A stretch of DNA of 45,437 nucleotides from Candidatus Goldiibacteriota bacterium. GTDB taxonomy: Bacteria; Oederibacteriota; PGYV01; DYJU01. The stretch covers positions 1 to 45,437 of the forward strand of contig CALHNI010000014.1 in the NCBI GenBank assembly GCA_938034975.1, given 5' to 3'. Made by a program: the position numbers and the translations under genes. The notes under the pieces were generated by a model. That model was given only the letters and a program-made list of their open reading frames with translations. It made no database searches and had not been told where the DNA came from. This document shows positions 3,799 to 33,832 of this stretch, piece by piece (the stretch's first letter is position 1; each line of letters starts with the position of its first letter).

Positions 3799-4236
3799 AT
3801 GAAAATAGTGATACTGGGGTGCGGAAGATTAGGTTCCCGCGTAGCATTAAAATTAGGCAAAGATGAAAATAATCAGATAATTGTTATTGATAAAAATCCT
3901 GATGCTTTTATTTTGCTTGGTAAGGATTTTAAAGGTAAAATTCTTGAAGGTGATGGAGCAAATATGGAAACATATATTAAAATTATGACTGAAAAACCAG
4001 ATGTGTTTTTAGCCCTTACCAATTCAGATAATACAAACATAATGGCTGCTGAAATAGCAAAACAAAAATATAAAGTTGAAAAGACAATTGCAAAGGTTTA
4101 TGACCCTATAAGGGCAAGGGCTTTTGAAGAATTAGGGATAGAAACAATATGTCCAACTTTGCTCTGCGAAAAGAAGATAAATAAAATGATTGAAAAAGCA
4201 AAGGTAAAAGAAAGCGAGAGTGATGAGGATGCCTGA
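3799..4236 (+). CDS. RCK_N (TrkA-N) domain protein, single domain
   Basis: 145 residues with a Rossmann fold: GCGRLGSRVA at residues 7-16, an acidic residue ending strand 2 (IVIDKN), a DGAN turn and LALTNSDNTN. This is the regulator-of-K+-conductance N-domain of TrkA/KtrA, which binds NAD(H) or ATP/ADP and gates cation transporters. No RCK_C domain follows. The protein ends in an acidic tail and overlaps the next RCK gene by 17 nt. The pair (RCK_N only, then RCK_N+RCK_C) probably forms a hetero-oligomer attached to the permease upstream, with AAAGGA before its ATG. Confidence 0.82.
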   Translation: MKIVILGCGRLGSRVALKLGKDENNQIIVIDKNPDAFILLGKDFKGKILEGDGANMETYIKIMTEKPDVFLALTNSDNTNIMAAEIAKQKYKVEKTIAKVYDPIRARAFEELGIETICPTLLCEKKINKMIEKAKVKESESDEDA

Positions 4237-4909
4237 TTTATCAGAAAAAGATAACCGTAAGTTTATCATAGTTGTTGGCGCCGGAAAGATGGGATATAAT
4301 CTTACAAAACTTTTGATTTCTGAGGGGCATGAGGTTCTTTTGGTGGAAAAAGATAAAGCAAGGTTCAATGAGTTAAGTGCTGAATTAGGTGAAAGTATAT
4401 TTTTAGGCGATGCTGCTGAATCTGATGTTTTAAAACAGATAGGGACTAACAGAGCAAATGTAGTTGTTGCAGTAACAGGAGATGATGATACAAATCTGAT
4501 AATCTGTCAGATGGCAAAAATAATGTATATGACGCCAAGAACGATAGCAAGAATTTCAAATCCCCAAAATGAAGATATTTTTTCAACATTAGGTGTTGAT
4601 AACATTGTAAATACCACACATATAGTAAATTCTCTTATTGAAAAAGAAGTTGATGCAGGAATGATAGTGCCAATACTTGATATAAAAGGAAGTAATGCTG
4701 AAATAGTTGAAACAGAACTTTCATCAAATTCACCTATAATAAATAAGGCAATAAAAGATATAAAATTACCTGAAGAGAGTTTAATTGTTTCAATTTTAAG
4801 GGATGGTCAGGTAGTTTTTCCGCACGGAAACACAGTGCTTAAAAATGGAGATACAATTATGATACTGGTTTCCAAGGAAAAGCGGGATATTTTAAGACAA
4901 ATTCTATGA
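4220..4909 (+). CDS. TrkA-family K+ uptake regulator, RCK_N plus RCK_C
   Basis: 229 residues. An RCK_N Rossmann domain (VVGAGKMGYNLTK at about 18-30, LVEKD, LGDAAES, AVTGDDDTN) is followed by an RCK_C domain at about 145-229 that ends in the typical DGQVVFPHGNTVLKNGD turn. RCK_C domains of KtrA/KtrC and CpaA are established c-di-AMP receptors in Firmicutes, and this window encodes a diadenylate cyclase (37442-38218). Three starts are possible: GTG 4220, ATG 4223 and ATG 4229. GAGAG at 4215-4219 favours none decisively. The gene ends about 50 bp before repeat R2. Confidence 0.83.
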   Translation: MMRMPDLSEKDNRKFIIVVGAGKMGYNLTKLLISEGHEVLLVEKDKARFNELSAELGESIFLGDAAESDVLKQIGTNRANVVVAVTGDDDTNLIICQMAKIMYMTPRTIARISNPQNEDIFSTLGVDNIVNTTHIVNSLIEKEVDAGMIVPILDIKGSNAEIVETELSSNSPIINKAIKDIKLPEESLIVSILRDGQVVFPHGNTVLKNGDTIMILVSKEKRDILRQIL

Positions 4910-4958
4910 AAATTTATTCAAGATTTTTAAATCAGAAAATAAATAAATTGATTTCTTT

Positions 4959-5165
4959 CTGAAAATCGTATTAAAAGATTGCGATTTCCAGGAGAAAAAA
5001 CACAAGAATAATATATTATTTTAAAAAATAAAATATTTAAAACAACGCTTGAGTTTTATTTTAAATTTAAAAAACGGGTGAATAAAAGTAATGCATTATA
5101 AAAATAAAATTAATAAAAAAATTTTGTTTTTCCGTAAAAACGAGTTTTCTAACGCGTTTTTACGG
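4959..5165 (+). repeat. Hairpin-ended dispersed repeat, copy R2, fused to a gene start
   Basis: End A is an imperfect hairpin at 4959-4991 (CTGAAAATCG with GCGATTTCCAG). End B is at 5132-5165 (CCGTAAAAACGAGTT, TTCT loop, AACGCGTTTTTACGG). The conserved interior is present: a TTTTATTTTAAATTT tract, then ACGGGTGAATAAAAG and ATG at 5091. The first 25 codons of the following GT-C gene are exactly the repeat from that ATG to the last base of hairpin B. Confidence 0.85.
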
Positions 5166-7151
5166 TTTCTTTTTATTTATTGTTTAGCAGTTTCTTTTTT
5201 ATTTTTATTTACAATGCTTATCTATAGCAATTTAAATTTTTCAGCCCCGCTGGATGATGCATTTATTTATTTTCAGTATGCAAGGAATACAGCTTTTGGG
5301 AATTTTTTTGAATATGTAAAAGGAGAAGGTTATTCATCAGGAGCAACCAGTTTTATTTATGTGTTTTTTTTAATTCCTTTTATTTATATTTTTAAAGGGC
5401 AGTACTTAATAATTGCGACTTATATTATAGGTGGCGTATGTTTATTCGTTACATCCTATTTTTTGTATAAGTTAATTCATCATATAACAAATAATGAAAA
5501 ATTGGCTTTTTTTGGTGTTTTGTTATTTGTTTTAAATGGTAATATTTTATGGGGTTTTTTTTCTGGTATGGAAATATGCCTGATTTTTACATTTGTTATT
5601 TTAGCGTTATATTACATTGCTGTTCCTTCTGAGACTTATAAAAAAATTTTGGCGCTTTGTTTTTTATCCCTGACAAGACCCGAGAGTTATATTCTCGTGT
5701 TGATTTTTTTTATAGTTAAAATTTTCAACAGAATTTATAATAAAAAAGAAAAATTGCTTGTCTATTTAATTCCTGTTTTTACCGGTCTTATCTATTTTTT
5801 ATTAAACAAATTTTTTACCGGTGATTATATGCCAAACACAATGCGGGCTAAATCAAATTTTTCCCTATTTTATTTTGATTATACAGAAATGATAAAACAC
5901 GGATGGGTATTTTATCTGCAGTTTTTAAAGGACATTTTTAACGGTGGTAAAGAACACTATTTTTTACATTACTCATTATTCTTTTTTTTAATTGGAATTA
6001 TGCCAGGGGTTATAAAAGAAATAAAAAACAAAAAAATGGAATTTTTTTCAATTTCTTTTTTTTGGTTTTTTATAGGTGTTATGGCAACAATGTTTTCAAG
6101 TTTTGCGCTTGTCCATAATTTCAGATATACAATGCCTTTTACAATAATCTTTATACTTTTTTTGGTAAATGGTTTAAAATTTGTTTTTGATACTTTAAAA
6201 ATATCAAAATACAGTTTACTTGTCATGGCAATTTTAAGCGTTTTTATCGTCTTTAATATTTTTACTTTTTTTGCAAATATAATAAACTTTGGCAGGGATT
6301 GCAACGCGATTTATTCTCAATCAATTCAGGCAGGTAAATGGTTAAGAGAAAATTTAAAAGATAAAAAAGTCGCTGTCAATGATGTCGGTGCAATTCAATA
6401 TTTTTTCAACGGGAAAATTTTTGACCTTGTTGGACTTGTAACAAATCATCAGGCAATAAATTTCAGGAATGGATTACCTGGCGTATTTGAAGCACTAGAA
6501 CGTATAAAGCCTGAATATTTTATGGTGCATATTGGCTGGTTTAATTATGAACCATATACTATTTTTAAAAAACCAAAACTTGCTGAATTTTCAATAAAAA
6601 GAGAACCCCCTTATTATGTTATCGGCTCACCAGAAATATGTTTTGAAACAGATATGTCACTTTTTCAAAGTGGTGATGAAATGCTTAAAGATTTTACTGA
6701 AAATGGCAATTTTATTTTAAAAGATAAAATAGATATTTGTGATATTATAGACGAAAAAGAACATTCTTATAAAATATGGGTTAAATGGCGCGGGGAATAT
6801 CCCGGGACAGAACTTTATGAGGAAAATTCCAAATATAGCGGGAAAAGAATAATTGATGCCGGCAGAATAACAAGTGGCGGGGAACAATTCAAAATAAAAA
6901 ATTTAATTCCCGGAGTTGATACCAAAATCATAATAAGAACTTATAACAACCCACGGAACTTACTTGACGTATTTATTAATGGGCAAAAAATAGGCAGATG
7001 GCTGATAGAAGAGACCGAAGGTTTTTCAGAAAATGAATTTTTTATAAAAGGTGATTATATAAAAAAAACAGAAGAAATTATCAAACTTGAAGTTGTTTCA
7101 AAAAACAGGTATAATAGTTTTTACTATTTTATTTTACAAAAAAAGACCTAA
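5091..7151 (+). CDS. GT-C fold membrane glycosyltransferase (DDAFIYF motif)
   Basis: 686 residues. The first membrane helix at about 26-46 is followed by APLDDAFIYFQYARN (Asp55-Asp56), the catalytic-loop signature of GT-C enzymes of the AftB/ArnT type that use polyprenyl-phosphate sugars. About ten more hydrophobic segments run to about residue 405, then a soluble C-terminal domain of about 280 residues of unknown role. Residues 1-25 are encoded by repeat R2. Helix 1 begins straight after it, so any start before helix 1 must lie in the repeat (ATG 5091, or TTG at codon 12). GGGTGA lies 9 nt before ATG 5091. It is followed 8 bp later by a second GT-C gene. Confidence 0.75.
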   Translation: MHYKNKINKKILFFRKNEFSNAFLRFLFIYCLAVSFLFLFTMLIYSNLNFSAPLDDAFIYFQYARNTAFGNFFEYVKGEGYSSGATSFIYVFFLIPFIYIFKGQYLIIATYIIGGVCLFVTSYFLYKLIHHITNNEKLAFFGVLLFVLNGNILWGFFSGMEICLIFTFVILALYYIAVPSETYKKILALCFLSLTRPESYILVLIFFIVKIFNRIYNKKEKLLVYLIPVFTGLIYFLLNKFFTGDYMPNTMRAKSNFSLFYFDYTEMIKHGWVFYLQFLKDIFNGGKEHYFLHYSLFFFLIGIMPGVIKEIKNKKMEFFSISFFWFFIGVMATMFSSFALVHNFRYTMPFTIIFILFLVNGLKFVFDTLKISKYSLLVMAILSVFIVFNIFTFFANIINFGRDCNAIYSQSIQAGKWLRENLKDKKVAVNDVGAIQYFFNGKIFDLVGLVTNHQAINFRNGLPGVFEALERIKPEYFMVHIGWFNYEPYTIFKKPKLAEFSIKREPPYYVIGSPEICFETDMSLFQSGDEMLKDFTENGNFILKDKIDICDIIDEKEHSYKIWVKWRGEYPGTELYEENSKYSGKRIIDAGRITSGGEQFKIKNLIPGVDTKIIIRTYNNPRNLLDVFINGQKIGRWLIEETEGFSENEFFIKGDYIKKTEEIIKLEVVSKNRYNSFYYFILQKKT

Positions 7152-18174: not shown

Positions 18175-18189
18175 AAAATGTAAAAATAC

Positions 18190-18367
18190 ATTAGAAAACG
18201 CGTTTTTTAAAAAAAACAAAATATTTTTATAAGGTAATACTTTTATTTACCAGTTTTTAAATTTAAAATAAAACATAAATATTATTTTAAAAATTTAAAA
18301 TATTTAATAATATTTTTGTTGTGTTTTTTTATTCTGGAAATTATAATTTTTTATTGCGTTTTTCAGG
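18190..18367 (-). repeat. Hairpin-ended dispersed repeat, degenerate copy R3 (A to B on minus)
   Basis: Read on the minus strand, an eroded end A (18334-18367) is followed by the shared TGTTTTATTTTAAATT tract, a GGTAAATAAAAGTA segment and the second half of hairpin B (18191-18210). The conserved ATG has become ATT and hairpin B is incomplete. It fills most of the 326-bp gap before flgB; the rest holds the promoter at 18408-18436. Confidence 0.65.
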
Positions 18368-27683: not shown

Positions 27684-27717
27684 CCGTAAAAACGCGTTTG
27701 AAAACACGTTTTTACGG
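27684..27717. repeat. Solo hairpin B of the dispersed repeat (R8)
   Basis: A 34-nt palindrome (CCGTAAAAACGCGTTT, then AAAACACGTTTTTACGG) equals end B of the family without end A or the interior. It lies between the CNB gene promoter and the tRNA promoter, in a 327-bp gap. Its A-tract/GC/T-tract symmetry would also suit a bidirectional terminator. Confidence 0.8.
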
Positions 27718-27837: not shown

Positions 27838-27913
27838 TGCCGGGTCGTCTAATTGGCAGGACATCTGACTCTGGATCAGAGAGTTGGTGGTTCGACTCCA
27901 CCCCCGGCAGCCA
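27838..27913 (+). tRNA. tRNA-Gln, anticodon CTG
   Basis: Cloverleaf by hand: acceptor TGCCGGG (27838-27844) with CCCGGCA and discriminator G, D-stem GTC/GAC, anticodon stem TCTGA/TCAGA with loop CTCTGGA (anticodon CTG at 27871-27873), and T-arm GGTGG-TTCGACT-CCACC. The CCA end (27911-27913) is encoded. It reads glutamine CAG codons. No second tRNA is adjacent. The TPR gene starts 30 bp downstream. Confidence 0.95.
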
Positions 27914-33644: not shown

Positions 33645-33832
33645 TCTGAAAATTGAATTAAAAGATTACGATTTTCAGAAGAAAAAAAAATACAACAAAA
33701 ATATTATTAAACAAATTAAATACTTTAAATAATAATTATGTTTTATTTTAAACAAAAAACGGGTGGATAAAAGTAATGCATTATAAAAATTTTTTATTTT
33801 TCAGTAAAAACGTTTTTTATGCTTTTTTACTG
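33645..33832 (+). repeat. Hairpin-ended dispersed repeat, copy R5 (A to B)
   Basis: Hairpin A is at 33645-33679 (TCTGAAAATTG with CGATTTTCAGA). The interior has ACGGGTGGATAAAAG and ATG at 33776, then CATTATAAAAAT. Hairpin B is decayed at 33802-33832. The ATG opens 32 codons (33776-33874) starting MHYKN, as in R2. It faces R6 end-to-end across 46 bp. Confidence 0.8.

Follow-up and report, generated by a model that had tools for sequence, protein, structure and literature searches.

Insertion of a MITE-like element very probably cut off the original start of a membrane-protein gene in a Candidatus Goldiibacteriota genome and supplied in its place an SD site, an ATG and a 25-codon reading frame, the insertion then being retained by selection on the host gene. 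The gene lies in a window of 45,437 nucleotides (the whole stretch of DNA that was analysed, to which positions given without a locus label refer), which belongs to a genome (G000) of 1.93 Mb that is 84% complete. The presence of the element and the disruption of the gene are evident from the sequence and from a sister genome whose site is empty, and from the arrangements described below we infer that at eight genes the repeat serves as a movable start for the protein.

The repeat leads in frame into the membrane domain

The 686-residue frame (5091-7151, forward strand) begins at ATG 5091, and its first 25 codons are lysine-rich and run, as translated, through the right hairpin of the repeat into the predicted membrane domain (Table 1). 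The initial annotation held that the frame crosses hairpin B and leaves the repeat after codon 25, and this is exact to the base: codon 25, CGG 5163-5165, is the final codon of the repeat copy. Residues from 26 onward (FLFIYCLAVSFLFLFTMLIYS) are hydrophobic, placing membrane helix 1 directly after the repeat end as had been proposed, and translation of 5132-5165 in this frame confirms that RKNEFSNAFLR derives from hairpin B. As starts upstream of the conserved region the frame offers ATG 5091 and TTG 5124, both within the repeat, and ATG 5214, within helix 1, bearing out the earlier view that all starts before helix 1 are inside the repeat. The GGGTGA reported at ribosome-site distance lies 9 nt before ATG 5091, and folding of the RNA around the start (5060-5110) left it unstructured in this copy. 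Translation probably starts at ATG 5091, since no start outside the repeat precedes helix 1 and seven parallel cases exist.

Were the element a tolerated spacer, the protein would start at ATG 5214 or TTG 5124 and the repeat residues would be untranslated or only partly translated. Both codons are in frame, but a start at ATG 5214 would take away the larger part of helix 1 (residues 26-41), a helix kept in 10 of 10 orthologues, and neither codon has an SD at a spacing like that of ATG 5091. Most of the other fusions (e.g. L109, L113, L117 and L124) moreover lack a host ATG in the segment from the junction to the conserved domain or signal peptide, and we regard the spacer explanation as very unlikely.

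The GT-C label first given to the membrane protein could be upheld only as far as a sub-threshold resemblance to DUF2079: the best Pfam model was PF09852 (E 2e-4, in an orthologue), and searches of the protein gave no Pfam match above threshold and no PDB match. A role for the repeat as promoter or terminator of the gene was rejected, the promoter scan scoring at the level of shuffled sequences and no terminator being found.

Table 1. Features of the window gene and its element copy, and loci of the parallel fusions
Feature	Position	Strand	Evidence
TrkA-like gene upstream; stop TGA 4907-4909 overlaps the original start of the gene that follows	4220..4909	+	PF02254/PF02080; gene order common to several relatives
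Ancestral N-terminus stub, ATG 4906, MKIYSRFLNQKINKLISF, TGA stop in the element's first bases	4906..4962	+	homologous to G001 MRIYSHINTSKLNKFLLLYC
Left TSD copy, TTTCTT	4952..4957	+	flank comparison; family consensus TSD is 5 bp
MITE-like element copy, imperfect terminal inverted repeats (consensus CCTGAAAAACGCATTA / CCGTAAAAACGCATTA)	4958..5165	+	nhmmer, flanks, TSD
Hairpin A, left terminal repeat	4958..4992	+	-10.8 kcal/mol, z -3.1
SD-like GGGTGA, 9 nt 5' of the ATG (family consensus AGGTGA)	5076..5081	+	sequence; copies compared
Putative element-encoded start and codons 1-25, MHYKNKINKKILFFRKNEFSNAFLR	5091..5165	+	frame translation
Hairpin B, right terminal repeat, translated RKNEFSNAFLR	5132..5165	+	-16.6 kcal/mol, z -4.9
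Right TSD copy, TTTCTT	5166..5171	+	flank comparison
Host-derived membrane-protein body: first helix, then SAPLDDAFIYFQYA motif	5166..7151	+	orthologue alignment
ABC_tran_2 permease fusion	L109		G001 empty site; seamless join at exact 5-bp TSD
ABC-2 permease fusion	L115		G001 empty site
Nudix protein fusion	L117		G001 empty site
Small exported protein fusion	L105		G001 empty site
PGA_cap lipoprotein fusion	L113		apparent ancestral stub MKKIIY|FILIIIISGC
GH30 protein fusion	L124		apparent ancestral stub MNK|YLIIIL...
Large exported repeat protein fusion	L079		apparent ancestral stub, least clear of the set

The repeat is a high-copy MITE-like element

That the sequence is a repeat was upheld, at least 76 genome copies of a 30-nt core being found with up to 3 mismatches allowed and 0 with the reversed pattern as control, while its extent was corrected to 4958-5165. 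Perfect hairpin-B palindromes numbered 27 in the genome and 0 in the control. A 222-position nhmmer profile was built from the genome's own copies; the 208-bp window copy matches positions 2-222 of it with 171 bits, and 104-105 copies score above 50 bits in the window and 59 stretches around core copies. At its ends the element has imperfect inverted repeats, CCTGAAAAACGCATTA on one side and, as reverse complement, CCGTAAAAACGCATTA on the other. Each is also a hairpin, and with the two ends written in order the element reads CCTGAAAAACGCATTA...TAATGCGTTTTTACGG. An exact 5-bp zero-offset TSD flanks 19 of 67 copies, whereas shuffling gave 1.07 on average and at most 5.

With a length of about 210 bp, no transposase inside, high copy number, terminal inverted repeats and a TSD, the element is, as judged from its sequence, MITE-like, a label chosen because no autonomous parent was found and, at this level of genome completeness, the parent may be missing. 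The element is essentially absent from 40 relatives, in which there were just two weak partial matches (in G001 and G005). A lone hairpin B palindrome (CCGTAAAAACGCGTTTGAAAACACGTTTTTACGG) with no full element occurs at 27684-27717, near a tRNA gene (27838-27910).

An existing N-terminus was split by the element

Of 13 genomes from the same genus or order, 12 have a match to the membrane protein. The orthologue in the same-genus genome G001 is 79-80% identical and lacks the repeat, and order-level orthologues are 47-51% identical over residues ~22-685, with unrelated short tails beginning just upstream of helix 1. Comparison with the repeat-free G001 orthologue, suggested at the outset as a check, showed a different N-terminus: its start ATG overlaps the TrkA-like stop, and its own tail (MRIYSHINTSKLNKFLLLYC...) is homologous to the window stub (MKIYSRFLNQKINKLISF*). 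This start ATG, missed in the initial annotation, persists in the window at 4906 and reads a stub of 18 codons that ends at TGA 4960-4962, part of the element's own CTGAAAA; hence the repeat, as far as sequence comparison goes, split an existing N-terminus and replaced it. Homology to G001 restarts right after the element (FLFIYC...), and the alignment of the joined flanks with G001 crosses the junction. Joining the flanks at the TSD leaves a frame offset of one base from G001 within a T-rich stretch; a one-base slip must therefore be assumed, either before or after insertion. The proposal that the repeat was captured as a translation start and cytoplasmic tail thus appears well founded, given the differing repeat-free orthologue and at least seven parallel replacements.

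On the reading that we favour, the element would have inserted after about codon 17 of a gene whose start overlapped the TrkA-like stop. The insertion would have severed the original start, leaving the stub, and the element would have supplied an SD site, an ATG and a 25-codon frame running straight into the membrane domain. A competing possibility is that the 4906 stub is translated and the body is reached mainly by termination and reinitiation across the element, the element SD being incidental. This is favoured by the intact ancestral overlapping start and by the sister genome, where an ATGA overlap suggests translational coupling; however, the ~130 nt from the stop at 4960 to ATG 5091 is far for reinitiation without a new SD, and ATG 5091 has an SD that is spaced by 9 nt and lies in unstructured RNA, so that we consider such coupling quite unlikely. 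A pseudogene or assembly artefact, with the gene broken by the element and the downstream frame a coincidence, is barely credible: the original start is truly severed, but the same arrangement recurs at eight unrelated loci on different contigs, 8 of 8 in frame, and the fused bodies are intact. The window gene itself is taken not to be a pseudogene because its 686-aa frame has no stop and is strongly conserved.

At least seven other genes carry a putative repeat-derived N-terminus

The same in-frame N-terminal replacement was found in at least seven other genes, making eight with the window gene (Table 1), with the old start apparently remaining 5' of the element. G001 has an uninterrupted 5' end for five of the eight (L109, L115, L117, L105 and the window gene). 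Inspection of the flanks indicated that in five cases (the window gene, L109, L113, L117 and L105) the old start overlaps the in-frame stop of an apparent preceding gene, so that these insertions struck operon joints without a spacer. L115 depends less on the element start, since a host ATG lies two codons past the junction. Two further candidates were dropped: L066, where the copy is truncated and a host ATG is close by, and L074 (100 aa), which reads RDDEIGRRSGLKIHGSSPS, presumably a translated tRNA region.

Interrupted frames of at least 100 aa were sought blind to the element's own frame and classified by eye. Interruptions at gene 5' ends were sense and in frame with the mini-ORF in 7 of 7 cases, about ten near gene 3' ends included both orientations, and none lay clearly in the middle of a gene. 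The 5' pattern needs no explanation beyond selection on the host gene. Under the favoured reading, retention would reflect this ordinary selection, the survivors at gene 5' ends being just the sense, in-frame insertions, and the element family would be pre-armed to yield them. Separately, copies of either orientation at L093, L069, L086, L101, L104, L080, L070 and window 18180-18367 apparently shorten or change the final 10-20 codons of genes.

The start signal belongs to the family consensus

The family consensus reads AGGTGA, 9 nt, ATG and ~30 open codons (MHYKNKNLLNKNNKKILFFRKNAFSNAFLR) that exit at the right end. This raises the alternative that the mini-ORF is an adaptation of the element, with a start codon selected as a self-rescue device. 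In keeping with it, the consensus includes the SD, the ATG and a frame that remains open across the right end, and ATG and open frame are retained in 8 of 8 fused copies. Among unfused copies with the right (3') end, however, the ATG is kept in only 62 of 76 and the frame is open to the end in 52 of 76 (SD, ATG and open frame together in 32 of 76). In copies outside the core-pattern selection the ATG columns have no special conservation (79% for the ATG segment, 77-95% for other segments) and, the ATG segment being conserved no better than the rest, there is no sign of element-level selection for the start codon. Family-wide functional conservation of the SD/ATG core was thus unsupported once core-selected copies were set aside, and an adaptive origin of the mini-ORF seems unlikely. 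Selection on the host gene remains the reading that we prefer.

Insertion beside −35 boxes and the search for a mobile parent

About one third of the copies have a sigma70-type −35 box 13-15 bp from one end, directed away from the element; both ends are used. Reading outward from the right end, TTGAC has 15 occurrences in 66 copies, each at 13-15 nt, where ~2.4 would be expected in 60 nt; from the left end there were five, four of them at 13 nt. Most of these sites resemble sigma70-type promoters, with a TATAAT-like box ~17 nt further. Strictly scored promoters at 12-16 nt numbered 11 at the right end and 8 at the left, with 0 at 17-74 nt, and a looser threshold placed a promoter on either side in 21 of 66 copies. 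Examples with the −35 spacing include window copies 255-465 and 33646-33831 and those at L068, L070, L081, L085, L121 and L157; the fused copies showed no clear promoter at 13-15 bp. The fixed spacing suggests a further case of promoter-directed transposition.

An autonomous parent with the same ends was not found in G000 at its 84% completeness. The sole match to an IS256/Mutator-type transposase (PF00872) found in the genome, at L157:1360-2637 (contig C5), has an intact frame; it appears not to be the parent, inspection by eye having revealed no terminal repeats matching the element around the gene. Just 5' of this gene lie two tandem copies (L157:868-1030 and 1189-1330) from a diverged sub-family of reduced length, made up of hairpin A, AATAAAAAAAGTAATG and the right end, and ~320 bp downstream is an element copy, 13-14 nt upstream of the TTGACA promoter of an ilvD-like gene. 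A DDE_Tnp_1 parent was rejected, the only trace being a decayed fragment at L155 (contig C36:1975-2079; a 57-aa frame with one stop within the match), which looks IS4/IS50-like, with the element ends not near. An IS200/IS605 or REP/RAYT origin was discarded in view of the 5-bp duplications and the lack of a Y1 transposase (PF01797) in the genome. Within the same 84%-complete assembly no ISKra4 transposase (NF033572) was detected, and a PF06782 search, run with no positive control, gave no parent.

Comparison with known elements

RPE is a ~150-bp palindromic element with a conserved open frame that is found in frame in genes for unrelated proteins and is translated (Ogata et al. 2000, reviewed in PMC10969869). 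The present element is likewise a short palindromic element with an open frame joined in frame to unrelated genes; compared by description, it differs in that RPE forms in-frame fusions within genes, whereas here the ancestral upstream frame stops inside the element, which consequently acts solely as a new 5' start. Going by the excerpts of Delihas (2007; PMC2759123), the nearest precedent of a MITE supplying a protein N-terminus appears to be RU-2, an enterobacterial element of the RU-2/ERIC type that supplies residues 1-30 of Y. pestis YPO1552; a carried ribosome site, sister empty sites and recurrent restored starts at overlapping operon genes are not described in those excerpts.

For the promoter spacing, the closest parallels are TnGBS/ISLre2 and ISKra4, which insert at a fixed distance upstream of the −35 of sigma-A promoters (~16 bp from the end), in both orientations when their terminal repeats are near-symmetric, and produce 8-9 bp duplications (Guerillot et al. 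2014, PMC3942029). The element resembles such p-MULT 3/ISKra4 elements in its fixed distance and in both orientations being used, but differs in its 5-bp TSD and 13-15 bp spacing. Relative to these precedents in the open-licence literature, where earlier reports may exist, the additions would be the ribosome site, the empty sites, the eight genes and the promoter spacing.

Implications

A bolder interpretation is that this is a promoter-targeting, self-rescuing miniature element with a ready-made start, which time and again rewrites the N-termini of host proteins and is mobilised by an unrecognised −35-targeting transposase that makes 5-bp duplications; we hold this only as a tentative, rather doubtful possibility. 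If it were true, insertions upstream of promoters and insertions into the first codons of operon genes would both be survivable. On the favoured reading, a selfish repeat can remove and replace the start of a gene in one step, and may have done so at eight genes of one small genome. This would constitute a route to new N-termini, including signal-peptide and membrane-anchor leaders, and the start codons of repeat-fused genes would be easily misassigned when the repeat is not recognised.
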